Positions 32,033 to 41,132 of a stretch of DNA of 64,000 nucleotides are shown piece by piece. The notes beneath the pieces were generated by a model. It did no database searches. It was not told the origin of the DNA and saw only the letters and a list, made by a program, of their open reading frames with translations. Position numbers and translations under genes: made by a program. This DNA comes from Streptomyces sp. B21-083 (GTDB lineage Bacteria; Actinomycetota; Actinomycetes; Streptomycetales; Streptomycetaceae), in contig NZ_JARUND010000001.1 of NCBI RefSeq assembly GCF_036898825.1, positions 4,774,001 to 4,838,000 of the forward strand, given 5' to 3'. Each line of letters begins with the position of its first letter. Position 1 is the stretch's first letter.

Positions 32033-33919
32033 ATGTCCAGCACGACCACCGCCCCGGTCCCCCCGGTGACCGGCAGCCACCTCACCGCACCCTCGGCCAG
32101 GCGTTCGGCCCGGCGCCCCGCCCGCCACCCGACCCGACACCTCACCCGCCACCCGACCCGACACTCGGTCCGGCACTCGGTCCGCTGGGACGTCGTCCAT
32201 CTCCTGGCCTGCGCCGTCTTCGCACTCGGTCTGGCGCTGGCCACGACCCTGTCCCCGCACCGCGTGTGGGGCGTCTGCGCGGCCTTCGGATACGGCACGG
32301 CGGCGATGCTGGCCGCCCGCGCCCCGCGCCCCTGGGAGAGCCGGGCAGCACTGCGCGCGGCCACCGTCGGCGCGGTGCTGCTCCCCCTGGGCCTGCTGAT
32401 CGTGCTCGGCGCGGCCCAGTCCGAGGTCGGGGTCGTCGAACACTCGGGCGCCCTGCTGCTGCACACGGGCAGCCCGTACGCACCCCACCCCGTCACCGTG
32501 GACGACTACAACCCGTACCTGCCCGGCATGGCCCTCTTCGGACTCCCGCACGCCCTCCTGGGCGACACCTGGGCGGCCCCGCTCGCGGACGCCCGGCTGT
32601 GGTTCTGCGCGACCTTCGCCGCCTGCCTGTACGCCACAACCAGGTCCCGTACGGCCGACAGGCCCCCTACCGCCAATGGGTCCCGTACCGCCAGTTGGGG
32701 GCGAACAGGCGACCCGACCCGTACCGCGGCCCTGCTGCTCTCCTTCCCGGCCGTGGCGCTGCCTCTCGCCGTCGGCGGGGTGGACCTACCGGTGATCGGG
32801 CTGATGTGCCTGGGCCTCGCACTGGCCGGCCGGACCGGTTCCGGCCGGGCGGCCGGGGTCGCGGCCGGGCTGGCGATAGGCGCCGCGGCGGCCCTGAAGT
32901 GGACCGCCTGGCCCCTTCTCCCCGTCGGTCTCGTCCTGATCGCCGTCACGGCGGGCCGCCGCACGGCCGTACGCGCTACGGTGACCGCTCTCCTGACAGC
33001 GGCGGCGGCCGTCGTACCGGTCGCCCTGGCCGACCCGCGCGCCTTCGTCGAGCACGTGGTGCTGTTCCCGCTGGGCAAGGGCGGCGTCCACTCCCCGGCG
33101 ACGAGCCCGCTGCCCGGACATCTGCTCGCCGAGTACGTGCCCGACGGCTTCGTCATCGCGGTCGCGCTGCTGATCGCGAGTGCCGTGGCGGTCGCGGCGT
33201 CACTCGTGGTCCGACCGCCGCGCACCGTCCGAGCGGCGGCCGACCGGCTCGCCGTCGGCCTGGGCCTGGCGATGTGCCTGATACCGGCCACCCGATTCGG
33301 CTACATGGTGTACCCGATCGTCCTGGCGATGTGGTTCCGCGCCGGCAGGACGGCTGCGAGCGACGCGCCGGCTCACGCCGCCGGGGTCGGGGTCGGGATC
33401 GGGTCAGCGACCGATCTTCACCTTCCGCGACACGCTCACCTGATCCACGTCGGAAGTCCGGATGGTGACCTTCATGGTCCAGGTGCCGGCGATCGGCAGG
33501 TTGAGGGTGTTGGTGCCCCAGTAGCCGCCCTGGTCGGTGACTTCGGCGTTGAGGGGGCCGATCTCCTTGCTGGGGAGGGAGAAGGAGATGCGGAGTTCGG
33601 GGACGATCGCGAAACCGTCGTCGGGGCCGAACACGACGGCCTGCACGGTGTTCTCGCCGACCCGGGCGGGTTCGAGGGTGACCTGCACCTTGCCGTGTCC
33701 GCCCGGTGTGCCCACGTCGAAGGGGATCGTCGTCGTGGACGCACTGATCACCCCGGGCGTCGGAGCATCCTTGGCGGCCTCCGCCGCCTCGGCCGCGGCC
33801 CGGCCCGGCAGGGTGGTCGTCAGGACAGTCGTGATCACCAACACCGCGATCCCGATGGCCACTTCGGCCAGCACGGAACGGCGGAGCCGCCGACGGTAGG
33901 AAGAGGAAAGGGAGGCTGA
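32033..33919 (+). CDS. Polytopic membrane protein, GT87/DUF2029-like, with read-through tail
   Basis: Open frame of 628 codons from ATG 32033. The first ~50 residues are an Arg/His/Thr repeat (RHPTRHLTRHPTRHSVRH) from a short DNA repeat. Residues 55-445 form about ten membrane segments with LHTGSPYAPHPVTVDDYNPY in an outside loop and ALKWTAWPLLPVGLVLIAVT later, as in GT87/DUF2029 mannosyltransferase-like proteins. After WFRAGRTAASDAP (about 33370) membrane-protein character ends and the frame continues for over 500 nt antisense to the CopC-CopD gene. The natural end probably was near 33400, lost by mutation or a frameshift. Confidence 0.65.
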   Translation: MSSTTTAPVPPVTGSHLTAPSARRSARRPARHPTRHLTRHPTRHSVRHSVRWDVVHLLACAVFALGLALATTLSPHRVWGVCAAFGYGTAAMLAARAPRPWESRAALRAATVGAVLLPLGLLIVLGAAQSEVGVVEHSGALLLHTGSPYAPHPVTVDDYNPYLPGMALFGLPHALLGDTWAAPLADARLWFCATFAACLYATTRSRTADRPPTANGSRTASWGRTGDPTRTAALLLSFPAVALPLAVGGVDLPVIGLMCLGLALAGRTGSGRAAGVAAGLAIGAAAALKWTAWPLLPVGLVLIAVTAGRRTAVRATVTALLTAAAAVVPVALADPRAFVEHVVLFPLGKGGVHSPATSPLPGHLLAEYVPDGFVIAVALLIASAVAVAASLVVRPPRTVRAAADRLAVGLGLAMCLIPATRFGYMVYPIVLAMWFRAGRTAASDAPAHAAGVGVGIGSATDLHLPRHAHLIHVGSPDGDLHGPGAGDRQVEGVGAPVAALVGDFGVEGADLLAGEGEGDAEFGDDRETVVGAEHDGLHGVLADPGGFEGDLHLAVSARCAHVEGDRRRGRTDHPGRRSILGGLRRLGRGPARQGGRQDSRDHQHRDPDGHFGQHGTAEPPTVGRGKGG

Positions 33920-35392
33920 GTCGGCCGGGGATACGTCGCCTGGGGCGTCACTCTCACCGGACTCACCGGACAGATTCGCCGGACCGCCGACCGTCTCCGG
34001 CACCCGTTCCGCGACCTTCACCTCGACCTTTGCCTCGGCCATTGCCTCGGCCTTCGTCTCGGCGTCCAGCTTCGCCCCCTCCGCCGCCTTCGGTGCCGAC
34101 AGCTGTCCCGTCCACCGGCGCGAGAACCCGGCCGCCACCAGCAGCAGCGCCACCGCGCACACCTTGGCGATCAGGATGCGGCCGTACGACGTACCGGTGA
34201 TCGCGTCCCAGGAGCCGAGGCCGCGCCAGGACTGGTAGACGCCGGTGACGGTCAGGACGGCCACGGAGGCGAAGGCCAGCCGGGAGAAGCGGGTGACGGT
34301 GGACGCCGGGAGCGGCTCCTCCGCCTGGAGGAGGGTGAGCAGGGCCGCGAGGCCGCCCAGCCAGGCGGCCATGGCGAGCAGATGCAGCACCGAGGACACC
34401 ATCGCCACCGGCACCTGGATACCGGCCGACGCGTGCTCGGCGGCGGCCCACGTCAGCGTGAGACCGAGCGCGAGCACACCCCCGACGCCGAGGAGGACCG
34501 ACTGCACACGGCCGCCACCCACAGGGTCGCCACCCGTCTCTCCCTCGGCGTGCCGCTGTCGGCGTACGACTACCGCCAGCAGTACGGCTGTTGCGGCCAG
34601 CAGTGCGAGCCGGGCCAGAAGTGCCAGGCCGGGCCTGCCGTTCACGGTCCGTTCCAGGGCCGACAGGTCGAAGGCGCCGGCGGGTGCGGTGCCGGCCTCG
34701 TACGGGCCGCGCAGCAGAAGCAGGGCGACGGTCGACACCAGGAGGGTCCACCAGCCCGTCAGGACCAGCCTGCGCAGGGGGCCCGTGCCGGGCGGCCGGC
34801 AGACGAGGACGAAGACGACGGTGCCGACCAGCAGCGCCAGAGCGGCGTACGCGAGGTAGCGGAAGGTGTCATAGAGGGCGCTGGTGGCCGCGTTCTCGGT
34901 GGGCCCGGTGTCGACCACGGTCGGGGTCGCGGAGGGCTCCCCGATGGAGAAGGTGAAGGCGCCCGAGATGGGGTGGCTGTCCGCCGAGACGACCCGCCAG
35001 GCCACGGTGAACGTGCCCTTGCCGAGGCCCGTGGGGAGGCTGACGCGCACTCCGTCGGAACGGCCCTCCACATGCTTGGCCTCGCCGGTGCTCACGCGCC
35101 GGCCGTCGGGGTCGAAGACGCGGAAGGAGTCGTCGAGCAGGCCGACGGACTCGGTGAAGCTCAGGGTGACCTGTCGGGGCGCGGAGTTGAGGACGCTTCC
35201 GTCCCGGGGGTCGGTGTCCCGGAGAGCGGCGTGCGCGGACGCGGTACCCGCCCCGCCGACGAGGAGGAACAGCACGAGCATTATGCCCAGCAGCACCACC
35301 CGCTGGACTCCCCGGACATCGCGTCCGCCTATTCGCCCGCCGGTCCGACCGACGGTCCGCTCACCTCTCCGTCCGGCGGTCCGTTCGACCAT
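33404..35392 (-). CDS. CopC-CopD fusion protein (copper-resistance family)
   Basis: 662 aa from ATG 35392 with GGAG 8 nt before. A basic n-region made of Arg/Gly repeats and a signal segment (VVLLGIMLVLFLLVGGAG) lead to the CopC domain, whose N-terminal His follows the cleavage site (SAHAALRDTDP) with a second His later in SADSHPISG; both are copper ligands in CopC. CopD follows with about eight membrane segments (190-470), then an Ala/Glu/Lys linker, a ninth segment and a C-terminal beta domain (KVQVTLEPARVGENTVQAVV). Such fusions bind and probably move copper across the membrane. A shorter start at GTG 35299 is possible. Confidence 0.87.
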   Translation of the reverse strand: MVERTAGRRGERTVGRTGGRIGGRDVRGVQRVVLLGIMLVLFLLVGGAGTASAHAALRDTDPRDGSVLNSAPRQVTLSFTESVGLLDDSFRVFDPDGRRVSTGEAKHVEGRSDGVRVSLPTGLGKGTFTVAWRVVSADSHPISGAFTFSIGEPSATPTVVDTGPTENAATSALYDTFRYLAYAALALLVGTVVFVLVCRPPGTGPLRRLVLTGWWTLLVSTVALLLLRGPYEAGTAPAGAFDLSALERTVNGRPGLALLARLALLAATAVLLAVVVRRQRHAEGETGGDPVGGGRVQSVLLGVGGVLALGLTLTWAAAEHASAGIQVPVAMVSSVLHLLAMAAWLGGLAALLTLLQAEEPLPASTVTRFSRLAFASVAVLTVTGVYQSWRGLGSWDAITGTSYGRILIAKVCAVALLLVAAGFSRRWTGQLSAPKAAEGAKLDAETKAEAMAEAKVEVKVAERVPETVGGPANLSGESGESDAPGDVSPADSASLSSSYRRRLRRSVLAEVAIGIAVLVITTVLTTTLPGRAAAEAAEAAKDAPTPGVISASTTTIPFDVGTPGGHGKVQVTLEPARVGENTVQAVVFGPDDGFAIVPELRISFSLPSKEIGPLNAEVTDQGGYWGTNTLNLPIAGTWTMKVTIRTSDVDQVSVSRKVKIGR

Positions 35393-35563
35393 CGGCCGGC
35401 CGGTCTCCGTGCGCTCGCCTCCGCCGGCTCGTCGGTCGTCGCGCCCTTGGTTCCGCAGTCGGCCCACGTAGCTTCTCCGTCTTCGGGACTTTTCGGCTCT
35501 CGTATACGTACGGACGATCCTGGTGCCCCGCTCACCCCGCCGGAACCGGATTCGCCGTGGTCT

Positions 35564-36460
35564 TCACCACGTGGGGCGGGCGGACACCCCTCCGTCCACC
35601 ACCATGTCGTGCCCGCTGACCCAGGACGCCAGCCGGGAGGCGAGGAACACACACGCGTCGCCGATGTCCTCGGGCCGCCCCAACCTCCGTACGGCCGCCG
35701 CCTGTTGCCACCGCCGTACCCCATCGGGCCAGTCGTCAGCGAGCCCTTCCCGGTCGACGAGCCCGGGCGAGACGGTGTTGACGCGGATCCCGTACGGCCC
35801 GTATTCGAGAGCGGCCGATCGGGCGTGCGCCACGACCGCCGCCTTCGAGGCGCAGTAGTGGGCGTGGCCGGGCGCCGGGTGCGCGGCCTCGATGGAGGCG
35901 ATGTGCGTGACACTCCCCCCGCTCCACCTCCCCCGGCTCCTGTCCCCGCCCCTGCCCCCTTCCTCAGCCTCACCGTCACCCTCGGCCGCCTGCTCGCGCA
36001 TGATCTCCGCCGCGGCCTGCGTACAGGCGAAGACGCTGAGGACGTTCATGTCGACGACCGCCCGCCAGTCGGCGACCGCCATCCCGACCAGCTCCTGGAC
36101 CGGTTGTACGCCCGCGTTGTTGACCAGCGCGTCGAGCCGCCCGCCACCCCACTCGGCTGCCTCCCGCACCACACGCCGGCACTCGTCCTCGACGGTGAGA
36201 TCGCCCCGCAGGACGACGGCTCGGCCGCCCGACTGCTCGATCCGCGCGGCCACTTCCCGGGCACCCTCGTCCGACGTCCGGCAGTGCACGGCGACAGCGG
36301 CACCCTCCGCCGCGAACCGCGACGCGACCCCGCGCCCGATCCCGCCACCGGCCCCGGTCACCAGGGCGACCTGCCCGGCGAGAAGACCTGCGGAACTCAC
36401 GGACGACCGCATGGATGGCGGCGTGGATGGCTGCGTCGACGACGACGTGGATGACCTCAT
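35564..36460 (-). CDS. Short-chain dehydrogenase/reductase (SDR)
   Basis: 298 aa from ATG 36460, which overlaps the cupin stop as ATGA. Classical SDR motifs: cofactor loop TGAGGGIGRG, NNAG, catalytic Ser (THIASIEA), and YxxxK as HYCASK. The end (SGHDMVVDGGVSARPTW) is standard. A ~20-residue insertion (about 175-200, Gly/Glu/Arg rich) sits between the NNAG helix and the catalytic Ser. The first ~20 residues are Ser/Thr/Pro-rich repeats; ATG 36412 is an alternative start. Last gene in a four-gene coupled operon led by the acylase; substrate unknown. Confidence 0.85.
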   Translation of the reverse strand: MRSSTSSSTQPSTPPSMRSSVSSAGLLAGQVALVTGAGGGIGRGVASRFAAEGAAVAVHCRTSDEGAREVAARIEQSGGRAVVLRGDLTVEDECRRVVREAAEWGGGRLDALVNNAGVQPVQELVGMAVADWRAVVDMNVLSVFACTQAAAEIMREQAAEGDGEAEEGGRGGDRSRGRWSGGSVTHIASIEAAHPAPGHAHYCASKAAVVAHARSAALEYGPYGIRVNTVSPGLVDREGLADDWPDGVRRWQQAAAVRRLGRPEDIGDACVFLASRLASWVSGHDMVVDGGVSARPTW

Positions 36461-36957
36461 GGCCGACACAGTGCCCCGATGCGAGCCGCCTCGGCCGGAT
36501 AACGCGCGGCCAGTTCGACGGCGTCCCCGTGCTCGTACCCCTCGAACGTGAACCCGGGCGCCATCGTGCACCCGAAGAACGTCCACGCGCCGCCCGTGAC
36601 GACCCGCGCGCCCATCCAGGTACCGGCGTCCACGGTGAGCTGGGGCTCCTGACCGTGCAGGAGGCCGGGCCCGAGCACGACCGTCCGGGAGGTGCCGTCC
36701 GGTGCGAGGAGCAGCAGTTCGAGGGGATCGCCGAGGTAGAAGTGCCAGACCTCGTCGGACGGCAACCGGTGCAGCGCGGAGAAGTCACCGGGCTCGGCGG
36801 TCAGCAGGGCGACGATCGCCGTGCCCTCCGGCCGCCCGTCGGCCCGCTCGGGCCCCGCCCACGTACGCCGGAACAGCCCGCCCTCACGCGGGATCGGCTC
36901 CAGGTCGTAGTGGGCGATCAGGTCGGCGGGCGTCGGATGTCCTGAGGTCGAGGTCAC
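36457..36957 (-). CDS. Cupin, DUF985 type
   Basis: 166 aa from GTG 36957, overlapping the acetyltransferase stop as GTGA. The cupin signature is visible: IPREGGLFRRTW, SALHRLPSDEVWHFYLGDPL (His/Glu metal ligands), QEPQLTVDAGTWMGARVV, FGCTMAPGFTFEGYEHGD. DUF985 cupins are small jelly-roll proteins of unknown or epimerase-like function. Third in the acylase operon and coupled at both ends, so it is expected to work on the same compound. Confidence 0.85.
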   Translation of the reverse strand: MTSTSGHPTPADLIAHYDLEPIPREGGLFRRTWAGPERADGRPEGTAIVALLTAEPGDFSALHRLPSDEVWHFYLGDPLELLLLAPDGTSRTVVLGPGLLHGQEPQLTVDAGTWMGARVVTGGAWTFFGCTMAPGFTFEGYEHGDAVELAARYPAEAARIGALCRP

Positions 36958-37577
36958 CCGGGAAAAGCTACCTCCCGGCGCAGAAAAGCCAGTTGGGCGC
37001 GCTTCTCCGGCAGATACACGTCCGGCAGATCGATCTCGGGCAGGACGACGACAGGCCCGGGCACGAACCCATGGCGCAGAAAACGGGTGACGGCCTTCTC
37101 GTTCGCCACATCCGGATCGACCACGACCCGCCGCCGCCCGAGCCCGACCAGCACGAACTCCGCCAGCACCCCCATCAGCGCACCCGACCACCCCGGCCGC
37201 CCGCCCTCCGCCCCGACGGGCGTGAGCAGCAGATGGACGCCGATGTCGCCGGGCTCGACGGGATAGCACTCGCCCACCCGGTCGGCCTCGGGCTCGTACG
37301 TCTGGAGCAGCCCGACCGCCGTACCGTCCTTCACCAGCAGGTAGGCGTGATGGGTGTCCAGGGCGTCCAAGTGGCCGTAGATCTCAGCGACTTGTTTCTC
37401 GGTGAGCCCGTTCATGCCCCAGAATCCGGCCTCCTGGCCGCTCACCCAGCCGTGCACGACGCCGGCATCGGCGACGGGGTCGAGCCGTAGCACGCGCACG
37501 GCGCCGAACCCGTCGACCACTCGCTCGTGCACGGCGGCACGGGCCGCGTACGGCTCAGCGGTCGTTACGTCGGTCAT
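36954..37577 (-). CDS. GNAT acetyltransferase, AlcB/IucB/DesC-like
   Basis: 207 aa, starting 3 bp after the acylase stop with GGAG inside its end. The segment VHGWVSGQEAGFWGMNGLT, then LVKDGTAVGLLQTYEPEADR, GDIGVHLLLTP and VVVDPDVANEKAVTRFLRHG are characteristic of the siderophore acyltransferase group (AlcB, IucB, RhbD, DesC), which acylate N-hydroxy-diamines or N-hydroxylysine. No hydroxylase or NIS synthetase is in the window, so whether it builds a siderophore or modifies one is open. The upstream iron box supports an iron-related role. Confidence 0.78.
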   Translation of the reverse strand: MTDVTTAEPYAARAAVHERVVDGFGAVRVLRLDPVADAGVVHGWVSGQEAGFWGMNGLTEKQVAEIYGHLDALDTHHAYLLVKDGTAVGLLQTYEPEADRVGECYPVEPGDIGVHLLLTPVGAEGGRPGWSGALMGVLAEFVLVGLGRRRVVVDPDVANEKAVTRFLRHGFVPGPVVVLPEIDLPDVYLPEKRAQLAFLRREVAFPG

Positions 37578-37580
37578 CAG

Positions 37581-39674
37581 TCAGTTCTCCTTCGTGAGCC
37601 GCGTCCAGTCGGTGACGACCGGGACGAGTTCTCCCCTTGTCCACAAGGGGAGTTGATCGCGGTTGTGGGCGGAACCGGGAACGCCGGAGGCGCCGAGGGG
37701 GACCACCCAGAGGCTGTCCTCGCGCCGGGCCAGGTCCCAGACGTACCGGGCGGCGGGCCCGCGCGCGCTGAGGTCGTTGAGCCCGGGGACGGAGGAGGTG
37801 CAGAGCACACAGTCGTGGTCGCCGGAGAGGGCCTGCTCGTCGTACGCGGAGTGCGAAGTGGTGGGCAGCGCCCGCCAGGGGACCAGCCGGTGACGCTCGC
37901 CCCAGGTCGCGACGCCGGTCGTCGGATCGGCGGCCACCTCGGTGACGGCTTCCCTGACCAGGGCGGCGCGGTCGATCCCGTACAACTCCTCGGTTTTCAG
38001 GAGCCCTTCGAGCGCGAAGGCGATCCGGGGGAGCAGCGCGAGCCAGGGGCGGAAGACCTCGGGGTACGCGGGCGGGACGGCCAGTGCGGCGAAGGCGGGG
38101 TGGGCGGCGAGGCGGCGTACGACAGCGGAGCGCAGGGCCGCGTACGACGCCGCGTCCGTGCTGTCGGCGTCCATCCGGCGGTCCCAGCGGAGAAGCCGGT
38201 CGCGGAGCTCCGCTTCCCCGGCCGACAGACCGTCGAGACCGTCGAGGGCGGAAATGAGGCCGAGGAGCGGGCCGGCGGAGGCGAGGTGGGTGTCCATGTG
38301 GACGGCGGACAGATCGTCCGCCGACCACTGGTCCCTCTCCTCAAGGAGGGCGCGGATACGGGCCGCCCGGTGCGGCGGTGCGAACTCGACGCCGAGCGGG
38401 GTCGACGGGCCGCGCTGGTTGGCCATGACGGCGAGGCCGTTGTCGACGGTGCCGTACGGCGTCTCGTGCCGGCCCTGCCATTCGTGACCGGGTTCCCAGG
38501 CCCGCGCGAGCCGGGTCCGGTTGACCTCGGCGCGTACGGGGACATGGCCCGCGACCCGGTGCAGCAGCCCGCCCTCGGTGTCGGCGGCGTGGACGACGTT
38601 GACGGGCTCGGCCCACAGGTCGAGGGCTCGGTCGATGTCGGCGACGCGGCGGGCACGGAGAAGCGGGAGAAGGGCGGAGAAGCCGAGGTCACCGGTGACG
38701 CGGGGCGGGTAGCGCAGACTGATGGTTGCCGTACGGCCGTCGTCGGGGCCGCCGATCACCACCGGCCCGCGCCCGGTCTCGATCACCTCGACCTCGACCT
38801 CGCCGGACTCCCCGCCCGCGACCTCGACCACTTCCCTGTGCACATGAGCCGGCCGCCACTCCCCGTCGGGATCGAGGGCCTCAACTCCCGTACCCGCGCG
38901 GCGGATCCGCTCCTCGTAGAGGTCCTGGTAGTCGGCCATGGCGTTGGTGATGGCCCAGGCTGCCGTGCCGGTGTGGCCGAAGTGGGCGATGCCGGGAACG
39001 CCCGGCACGGCGAACCCGACGACGTCGAACTCCGGGCAGAAGAGCCGGACTTGCTGGTAGACGCCGGGATCCTCGATATAGCGGTGCGGGTCGCCCGCGA
39101 GCAACGGGAGCCCGGTGACGGACCGTTCGCCGCTCACCAGCCAGCCGTTGCTGCCGGAGGTGCCGGGTCCGTCGGTGGCGAACAGGGCGACGGCGTCGGC
39201 ACCGAGATGCGCGACGACCTGGTCGCGCCAGAGCTTGGCCGGGAAACCGGCGAACAGGATGTGCGTGGCGAGCCAGACGCCGAGCGGGGTCCAGGGCTCC
39301 CAGCGCCCGGGTGCCAGGCCGGTCGCGGCGAACTCGGGTGCGCGGCGGGCCCCTTCGCCCAGCCCGGCGTTGACACCGTCCGTGTACGCGCGCACCCAGG
39401 CGGCGGTTTCGGGGTCCCGTCTCTCCAGGGTGGCGTAGCAGTGCCTCGCGGTGTCGTCGAGGCGGGCGCGTCTGGCGAACACGTCCCAGCCGACCGCGTC
39501 GGCGCCGAGGAACGCGGCCGAGGTGCCCTGCGTGCGGTGGCGCTCGACCTCCAGCTGCCAGGCCCGGTCGAGGGCGGTGACACGGCCCTGGCAACGGGCG
39601 AGTTCGAGCGCGTCGGCCGCCCGCAGGTGCGGGATGCCCCAGGCGTCGCGGTAGATCTCGGTGGCCATATCCAT
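37581..39674 (-). CDS. Penicillin-acylase-type Ntn hydrolase
   Basis: 697 aa from ATG 39674 (MDMATEIYRDAWGIPHLRA). The alpha-chain start YRDAWGIPHLRAADALELAR, the autocleavage/nucleophile region GTSGSNGWLVSG with probable catalytic S175, FAVPGVPGIAHFGHTGTAAW and NDLSARGPAARYVWDLAR fit the penicillin amidase family, which are N-terminal nucleophile hydrolases that cleave or form amides. Unlike most relatives it has no signal peptide, so it should act in the cytoplasm. First gene of a coupled operon behind a 19-bp iron box and divergent from a siderophore-interacting protein. Penicillin-amidase homologues are known in desferrioxamine loci, and PvdQ of pseudomonads matures pyoverdine. Confidence 0.85.
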   Translation of the reverse strand: MDMATEIYRDAWGIPHLRAADALELARCQGRVTALDRAWQLEVERHRTQGTSAAFLGADAVGWDVFARRARLDDTARHCYATLERRDPETAAWVRAYTDGVNAGLGEGARRAPEFAATGLAPGRWEPWTPLGVWLATHILFAGFPAKLWRDQVVAHLGADAVALFATDGPGTSGSNGWLVSGERSVTGLPLLAGDPHRYIEDPGVYQQVRLFCPEFDVVGFAVPGVPGIAHFGHTGTAAWAITNAMADYQDLYEERIRRAGTGVEALDPDGEWRPAHVHREVVEVAGGESGEVEVEVIETGRGPVVIGGPDDGRTATISLRYPPRVTGDLGFSALLPLLRARRVADIDRALDLWAEPVNVVHAADTEGGLLHRVAGHVPVRAEVNRTRLARAWEPGHEWQGRHETPYGTVDNGLAVMANQRGPSTPLGVEFAPPHRAARIRALLEERDQWSADDLSAVHMDTHLASAGPLLGLISALDGLDGLSAGEAELRDRLLRWDRRMDADSTDAASYAALRSAVVRRLAAHPAFAALAVPPAYPEVFRPWLALLPRIAFALEGLLKTEELYGIDRAALVREAVTEVAADPTTGVATWGERHRLVPWRALPTTSHSAYDEQALSGDHDCVLCTSSVPGLNDLSARGPAARYVWDLARREDSLWVVPLGASGVPGSAHNRDQLPLWTRGELVPVVTDWTRLTKEN

Positions 39675-39699
39675 TCCTCACCGGGTCCGAAACTGTGCT

Positions 39700-39718
39700 T
39701 TAGGTTAGCCTTACCTAA
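39700..39718. promoter_or_regulatory. Iron box (DmdR/IdeR-type operator)
   Basis: TTAGGTTAGCCTTACCTAA is a near-perfect 19-bp palindrome matching the streptomycete DmdR1/IdeR iron box (TTAGGTTAGGCTCACCTAA). It lies midway between the divergent starts at 39674 and 39758, so iron should repress both the acylase operon and the siderophore-interacting protein. Confidence 0.93.
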
Positions 39719-39757
39719 GCAAGTCGTGCCGGAATCGTACGCGAGGGTGGAGAAGTC

Positions 39758-40531
39758 ATGGCGCAGGGGCAGGGGCGGGGGCAGGGCCGTCGCGGCTGGG
39801 AGGGCGCGGTCCTCAAGCTCTTCCGGGGCAAGGACTTCGTCTTCACCGTGACGGGCGCCGAGGACGTCACCCCGCACTATCGGCGCCTCCACCTCACCGA
39901 CGGGGGCATGCTTTCCGCCACCGGCGTCCACCCCACGATGTGGGTCCGGCTCTGGTTCGGCAACGCGGGCAAACCGCACCAGCGGGCGTACACGCTGGTC
40001 GACCCGGACCCCGGGGCGGGCACGTTCAGCCTCGAGTTCGCGCTCCACGAGGGATGCGCGAGCGACTGGGCGCGGGCGGCGAAGCCCGGCGACACCATCG
40101 GGGCAACGGTCCAGGGAACGGGCTTCACCCGGCCCGAGCCGGACCCCTCGCACATCTTCGCGATCGGCGACCCGGCATCGCTGCCCGCGCTCAACTCCCT
40201 GCTGGACGCGTTTGGTTCGACCCCGGCGACGATCTGGTTCGAGTCGGACCACGGCACCGACGGCTACCCCTTCCGCACCGCCCCCGACCATCACGACGTC
40301 CGCCCGGTGCCCCGCCGGGACGCGGGTGCCCAGCTGGTCGCCGAGGTCCGCTCGGCCTTTCCGGACCTGCTGACGCACACCGCCGACCCGTACGTGTGGA
40401 TCGCCTGCGACACGGCCACGACCCGGACCCTGACGAGCTGGTTCCGCAAGGAGACGGGGCTGCCGAAGCAGCGGGTGCACGGGCTGGGGTACTGGCGGCC
40501 GTACGGCACCCCTGCCGCGATCGAGGCATGA
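39758..40531 (+). CDS. Siderophore-interacting flavoprotein (ferric-siderophore reductase)
   Basis: 257 aa. After a Gly/Gln-rich lead, the FAD-binding barrel has the family motif QRAYTLVDPDP (about 85-95) and an early YRRLHLTDGG strand; the C-terminal half has the NAD(P)H-type region HIFAIGDPASLPALNSLLDA and VWIACDTATTRTLTSWFRKE. SIP-family enzymes reduce Fe(III) bound to hydroxamate or catecholate siderophores to release iron in the cytoplasm. Placement behind the iron box fits. No siderophore permease or binding protein is next to it. Confidence 0.92.
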   Translation: MAQGQGRGQGRRGWEGAVLKLFRGKDFVFTVTGAEDVTPHYRRLHLTDGGMLSATGVHPTMWVRLWFGNAGKPHQRAYTLVDPDPGAGTFSLEFALHEGCASDWARAAKPGDTIGATVQGTGFTRPEPDPSHIFAIGDPASLPALNSLLDAFGSTPATIWFESDHGTDGYPFRTAPDHHDVRPVPRRDAGAQLVAEVRSAFPDLLTHTADPYVWIACDTATTRTLTSWFRKETGLPKQRVHGLGYWRPYGTPAAIEA

Positions 40532-40538
40532 TCGACCC

Positions 40539-41132
40539 ATGGACGTCACTCTCCACCTCGCCCAGGACCCCGAGGCCGACGCGCTCCTCGGCCGCAGTGC
40601 GCTCGCCGCGCTGACCGGAATGCTGCTGGACCAGCAAGTGCCGATGGAGTGGGCGTTCAAGGGACCGGCGACCATCGCCCAGCGACTGGGCGCCGAGGAC
40701 CTCGACGCACACGAGATCGCGGCGTACGACCCGGAGGCCTTCGCCGCGCTCCTCTCCGACAAGCCGGCCGTGCACCGGTACCCGGGCTCGATGGCCAAGC
40801 GCGTCCAGCAGCTCTGCCAGTACCTCGTCGAGCACTACGAGGGCGACGCCGAGGGCGTCTGGCGGGACGCGACGACCGGCCAGGAACTGCTCAAGCACCT
40901 CACCGACCTGCCCGGCTTCGGTAAGCAGAAGGCCCAGATCTTCCTGGCCCTGCTCGGCAAGCAGCTCGGCGTACAGCCCAAGGGCTGGCGTGAGGCCGCC
41001 GGTGCCTACGGCGAACCGAAGTCCTTCCGCTCCGTCGCCGACATCACCGGCCCGGAGTCCCTGGTCAAGGTCCGTGCCCACAAGCAGGAGATGAAGGCGG
41101 CGGCGAAAGCCGCGAAGGCCGCCGGCAAGTAG
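40539..41132 (+). CDS. HhH-GPD family base-excision repair protein
   Basis: 197 aa, starting 7 bp after the SIP gene. Helix-hairpin-helix LTDLPGFGKQKAQIFLALLG (about 128-147) and LTGMLLDQQVPMEWAFKGPA near the N-terminus fit the HhH-GPD glycosylase superfamily; no iron-sulfur cysteines and no clear GPD Asp beyond the loop, so activity is not certain. The Lys-rich C-terminus (KQEMKAAAKAAKAAGK) may bind DNA. Possibly co-transcribed with the flavoprotein. Confidence 0.85.
   Translation: MDVTLHLAQDPEADALLGRSALAALTGMLLDQQVPMEWAFKGPATIAQRLGAEDLDAHEIAAYDPEAFAALLSDKPAVHRYPGSMAKRVQQLCQYLVEHYEGDAEGVWRDATTGQELLKHLTDLPGFGKQKAQIFLALLGKQLGVQPKGWREAAGAYGEPKSFRSVADITGPESLVKVRAHKQEMKAAAKAAKAAGK

Follow-up and report, generated by a model that had tools for sequence, protein, structure and literature searches.

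The closest described counterpart of the locus studied here is desJGH of Streptomyces coelicolor, whose function was published in 2025 (PLoS Biol, PMC12161575). In that paper, SCO4047-SCO4052 are described as the genes for an HhH-GPD protein, a desF paralogue (desJ), a penicillin amidase (desG), a DesC-like acyltransferase (desH), a putative sugar epimerase and a dehydrogenase, desJGH corresponding to SCO4048-SCO4050; the whole group is assigned to the DmdR1 regulon. Desferrioxamine B (DFO B) fell about 1000-fold in a desG mutant and about 16-fold in a desH mutant, desferrioxamine E (DFO E) went up, and both genes are thus needed for high DFO B. The reactions proposed there are desuccinylation of N-hydroxy-N-succinylcadaverine (HSC) by DesG and a renewed acylation by DesH, this time with acetyl, whose product supplies DesD; fusions of desG with desH are reported from S. 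atratus and two Micrococcus strains. A later paper mentions in passing that desJGH is an operon under DmdR1 control and separate from the des cluster (PMC13011467); within the reach of our search, which excluded most subscription journals, we found no further literature on desG or desH. Here we analysed a 64-kb stretch of Streptomyces sp. B21-083 (hereafter the window), part of a 10.5 Mb genome, in which an acylase gene and an acyltransferase gene lie next to an iron box.

The window carries a probable desJGH locus

In the window, the iron box lies between desJ, which encodes a flavoprotein of the siderophore-interacting protein (SIP) family, and four genes that point away from it on the minus strand, desG-desH-cupin-SDR (SDR, short-chain dehydrogenase/reductase; Table 1). 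The families and the gene order, the HhH-GPD neighbour included, are those of SCO4047-SCO4052 as given in the published description. We therefore consider it very probable that this is the desJGH siderophore locus for DFO B, with the downstream cupin-SDR pair as a passenger. The likeness to S. coelicolor, again judged from the published description, extends to the iron box, to the position apart from desABCD and to a genome that also has desEFABCD.

The four minus-strand genes are closely packed, with a gap of 3 bp between desG and desH, a GTGA overlap between desH and the cupin gene and an ATGA overlap between the cupin and SDR genes. desG and desH share one frame, in which a TGA and one further codon separate them (window 37570-37590), and AAGGAG precedes the ATG of desH. 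The original prediction had described the iron box, the SIP flavoprotein, the four-gene operon and these junctions, and every detail that we checked by palindrome scan, Pfam search and coordinates was correct. It had also pointed out that no hydroxylase, decarboxylase or synthetase gene of the non-ribosomal-peptide-synthetase-independent siderophore (NIS) type is present among the genes of the locus, which is indeed the case, such genes being encoded elsewhere in the genome. Its proposal of an undescribed system has to be given up, since the locus matches in families and order the desJGH locus already published (PMC12161575).

The iron box and the gene pair are conserved

The box between desJ and desG is the sole match to the 19-bp palindrome in the 64 kb when up to 3 mismatches are allowed (mean of 0.00 in 100 shuffles). 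When the whole genome was scanned with a degenerate box, only two perfect matches were obtained, namely this box and that of the des cluster; one further site had 1 mismatch, two had 2 mismatches, and a backward control pattern gave 0 matches. The iron control put forward in the original prediction is therefore supported at the level of the sequence. The site with 1 mismatch (L101, G000:C1:821308-821326) is located at the 5' end of a DUF2470-domain open frame, the true start of which probably falls past the box; genes for a lactonase-type beta-propeller protein and a cytochrome P450 are found nearby.

We then compared the locus with the best 80 of 582 relatives from a genome scan, all in named Streptomyces records; four of these loci were included in spite of their short flanks, so that the neighbour counts are lower bounds. 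In 77 of the 80 loci, the 300 bp upstream of desG contain a box with no more than 1 mismatch; of 1437 control windows taken from these loci, 3 do. Among these 77 boxes, 24 are exact to the degenerate pattern and 53 have one mismatch; the best sites of the other three loci have 2 mismatches (two loci) and 5 mismatches (one locus). A desH match stands beside desG in all 80 loci, and under a stricter rule it begins after the desG match in 78 and overlaps it in 2. As for the other neighbours, at least 63 loci have the divergent SIP gene, 61 the cupin, 48 the SDR and 74 the HhH-GPD gene. Within flanks of up to 6 kb, none of the 80 loci gave a match to desA, desB, desD or desF at E 1e-10, or a desC match above 150 bits. 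An adjacent des cluster had been considered for desG loci with few of the usual neighbours, L011 and L055 among them, and this flank search gave no sign of one.

In 10 of the 80 loci, desG and desH form a single open frame. The three top-ranked relatives of the window gene are among them; apart from the species, it is in this respect that our locus, with its one frame split by a stop codon, differs from desJGH as described for S. coelicolor. Such in-frame fusions fit a direct hand-over between two successive steps.

A partner des cluster is present in the same genome

A region on a different contig (L098) contains a gene for a periplasmic binding protein at the desE position, a SIP reductase gene (desF) and an iron box, together with genes for a pyridoxal-dependent decarboxylase (desA), an N-monooxygenase (desB), DesC and an IucA/IucC synthetase (desD); the gene names rest on Pfam families and order. 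DesJ is 27% identical to the DesF-type protein of its own genome over 196 aligned positions. DesH belongs with the DesC/DfoC/MbtK-type acyltransferases (Acetyltransf_8), its best solved relative being DfoC, and shares 31% identity with the DesC of the same genome. It differs from the DesC type in that its gene sits with desG and not with desABD, and in the preference for acetyl over succinyl that was proposed for it (PMC12161575).

The genome contains other genes of these families. A second NIS-type group (L099, G000:C1:2504000-2517000) consists of an IucA/IucC synthetase gene, a gene for a DesC-like Acetyltransf_8 protein and one for a class III aminotransferase; the genome scan gave no iron box there at up to 2 mismatches. 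Two more IucA/IucC-family genes, both above the Pfam cut-off, are close to each other on opposite strands (L100, G000:C1:1846730-1848882).

The cupin-SDR pair is most likely a passenger

The original prediction had assumed that the cupin and the SDR alter the product of the other two enzymes. We searched for the cupin in 116 genomes without an intact desG, that is, 115 genomes scored as lacking it (see below) and G012, counting as close those matches with about 58% identity or more and leaving aside weaker ones (up to 48%). A close cupin was found in 38 of them (16 of 51 and 22 of 65), and 10 of these 38 are also without desD. Thirty-four of the 38 loci were opened (G138, G191, G194 and G265 were left out). 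The SDR gene stands beside the cupin gene in 30 of the 34, and none of the 34 has an iron box (up to 2 mismatches) or a SIP match. In nine, the cupin lies to the side of the HhH-GPD gene on which it is also found in the window, eight times at 90-533 bp and once (L125) at 1.9 kb, and no SIP match, box or intact desGH was found between the two genes; scraps of desH remain in L108 and L125, and L108 also keeps scraps of desG. These loci, in which desG is missing and the cupin is still in place, indicate that the box, desJ, desG and desH tend to come and go as a block and that the cupin-SDR pair is separable from it. The idea that the pair alters the product is thus not borne out.

Alternatively, the cupin and SDR could contribute to the response to iron starvation, perhaps by converting a side product formed in the N-hydroxycadaverine pathway. 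The start-stop overlaps that join the cupin gene to desH and to the SDR gene in the window, and the presence of the two genes downstream of desH in the numbers of loci given above, speak for such a role and against a passenger; SCO4051 and SCO4052 are moreover placed in the same DmdR1-linked region in PMC12161575. We nevertheless regard this role as unlikely in view of the box-free cupin loci of desG-less and even desD-less genomes, and because 19 of the 80 desG loci have no cupin at that place. Equally doubtful is a scenario in which the desGH operon of many Streptomyces took up the pair, which is box-free elsewhere, and the chemistry of the pair joined the iron-starvation response in those species, for instance to handle the product of the succinyl/acetyl exchange. 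In the accessible part of the DUF985 literature, we found no function that could be transferred to the cupin. Most likely, the pair is a passenger, co-transcribed by virtue of its position.

DesG resembles acylases of dicarboxylic acyl amides

In the alignment with solved relatives, Ser175 of DesG falls on the residue with which their beta chain begins, and Ser175, Asn176, Trp178, His197, His231 and Asn244 are invariant in 80 of 80 loci; this N-terminal serine of the beta chain and the conserved His/Asn active site make DesG a member of the Ntn-hydrolases. Among solved relatives with a named substrate, the alignment puts glutaryl-7-ACA acylase first (5.8e-67) and D-succinylase second (2.8e-31). 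Like DesG, the two enzymes are of the Ntn-hydrolase family, with a beta chain that starts with SN and a histidine at beta-23, and they differ from DesG in their substrates; to our knowledge, neither is known from siderophore operons. Since both cleave amides of dicarboxylic acyl groups, they support a desuccinylation by DesG. In addition, His231 aligns with the beta-57 histidine of 4hsr and 35sz, at a position where 4hst has a serine and where D-succinylase has no histidine. This position presumably touches the substrate, and the match lends weak support to the assignment. A structure prediction of DesG from 23 sequences was poor (mean pLDDT of 46.9), and the argument on the substrate rests on the sequence alignment.

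Another possibility is that DesG attaches or removes aryl (phenylacetyl) caps to give arylated desferrioxamines. This was the original proposal for desG, as reported in PMC12161575, and penicillin G acylases do appear among the DesG matches. The best of them (4e-18) ranks far behind the glutaryl-7-ACA acylase and D-succinylase, arylated desferrioxamines are not known from S. coelicolor according to the same source, and the desG mutant loses DFO B, so that we consider such a function very improbable.

PvdQ is a still more distant relative (3.8e-7). It is a periplasmic enzyme that takes off a fatty acyl chain, and acylases of its type carry a signal peptide. DesG belongs to the same superfamily, but its score with NCBIfam NF051460, 31.5 bits, is far below the family cut-off of 950. 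Because the Pfam match of DesG starts at residue 5 and there is no in-frame start upstream, a signal peptide is unlikely. From its sequence, DesG would fit a cytoplasmic enzyme acting on monomers rather than a PvdQ-like periplasmic one.

desG is accompanied by desD in the scored genomes

The occurrence of desG and desD was scored in 295 genomes of the genus of the window, read as Streptomyces since the 80 named loci all belong to it. The best E-values of each gene form two clear groups, and the table was sorted by hand: desG was taken as present below about 1e-89 and absent above about 1e-37, desD as present below about 1e-200 and absent at about 1e-80 to 1e-99 or without a match. Two genomes were set aside, G012, in which desG is in pieces and desD gave no match, and G224, with split matches to both. 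In the remaining 293 genomes, we observed desG together with desD in 178, desG only in 0, desD only in 58 and neither gene in 57 (Fisher p of 1e-28, not corrected for ancestry). That none of them has desG without desD is the pattern expected of a pathway-specific helper of DesD. In G012 (L123, G012:C1:7072000-7086000), the desG pieces fall within residues 5-348 and part of the SIP gene is left; neither an iron box in the 14 kb nor a desD match in the genome was found, and the desG locus thus seems to degenerate once its pathway has been lost.

It had been suggested beforehand that an operon occurring mostly without iron boxes or siderophore genes would speak against a siderophore function. For desGH this is not what we see, as 77 of 80 loci are boxed and none of the 57 genomes that lack desD has desG; for the cupin-SDR pair, which occurs without both, it counts against the original prediction. 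The deacylation and reacylation of hydroxamates and the link to siderophores, also part of that prediction, find support in the 2025 model (PMC12161575), in the des cluster of the same genome and in the relatives of DesG. Its further reading, in which the acylase-acyltransferase pair serves to tailor, recycle or detoxify acylated siderophores, either finished or foreign, could appeal to the divergent SIP-family reductase and to the weak relationship with PvdQ, and it is the least probable of all, since the DesG frame leaves no space for a signal peptide of the kind found on periplasmic acylases, the S. coelicolor mutants are altered in their amounts of DFO B and DFO E and reveal a role in making DFO B (PMC12161575), and a scavenging enzyme would be expected in non-producers too.

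Several points weigh against the assignment as desJGH. Orthology to SCO4048-SCO4050 was judged by order, families and the published description. In the S. violaceoruber locus L035, which we take to be from the nearest named kin of S. coelicolor, the SDR gene was not found beside the cupin gene, so that SCO4052 is no more than a possible counterpart of our SDR. None of the DesA, DesB and DesD proteins of the partner cluster reaches the NCBIfam equivalog cut-off. The best solved relative of DesG overall, 35sz (2.5e-119), bears a family name only, with no stated substrate. Finally, the association of desG with desD could be inflated by shared ancestry, and the 58 desD genomes without desG have to be listed here as well; desGH is optional, as the model expects for strains that make DFO E only.

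Other features of the region

The features of the locus are collected in Table 1. The gene after the SDR gene, at 33404-35467, encodes CopC and CopD domains. A CopC/CopD match is found downstream of desG in 73 of the 80 related loci, including those where the cupin and the SDR are missing.

Table 1. Features of the locus, with positions in the window
Feature	Position	Strand	Remarks
SDR-family oxidoreductase	35564-36460	-	Pfam adh_short_C2, E 2e-55; open frame runs further 5'
Cupin_5/DUF985 protein	36457-36957	-	Pfam E 5e-39; part of the separable cupin-SDR module
desH: DesC-like GNAT acyltransferase	36954-37577	-	Pfam Acetyltransf_8, E 2e-36; predicted N-hydroxycadaverine acetyltransferase
desG: Ntn-hydrolase acylase, penicillin amidase family	37581-39674	-	Pfam Penicil_amidase, E 8e-153; predicted HSC desuccinylase
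Iron box (DmdR1-type operator)	39700-39718		TTAGGTTAGCCTTACCTAA; between desJ and desG
desJ: flavoprotein of the siderophore-interacting protein family	39758-40531	+	Pfam SIP, E 5e-20, and FAD_binding_9; distant DesF paralogue
HhH-GPD base-excision-repair family protein	40539-41132	+	TIGR03252; conserved neighbour, SCO4047 position

Proposed route and significance

DmdR1 is a repressor that leaves its box under iron limitation. In the route that we propose, its release would allow transcription in one direction into desJ, whose product would be a ferrioxamine reductase-like protein, and in the other direction into desG and desH. DesC would make HSC, from which DesG would strip the succinyl group; DesH would acetylate the freed N-hydroxycadaverine, giving the acetylated monomer (HAC), and DesD, encoded elsewhere in the genome, would join one HAC and two HSC into DFO B and not into the cyclic DFO E. 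The individual reactions of DesG and DesH are those proposed for S. coelicolor, and the sequence comparisons made here support them. We infer that this strain makes DFO B in the same way as S. coelicolor and that the cupin and the SDR take no part in the route.

What is new here is the co-occurrence pattern of desG and desD, the frequency at which desG and desH are fused, and the finding that the cupin-SDR pair is separable, which corrects a likely over-reading of the operon. The co-occurrence pattern independently supports the 2025 model and allows a prediction of the species that produce DFO E alone. By that model, it depends on this locus whether a Streptomyces produces desferrioxamine B, the open-chain drug, or nothing but the cyclic desferrioxamine E.

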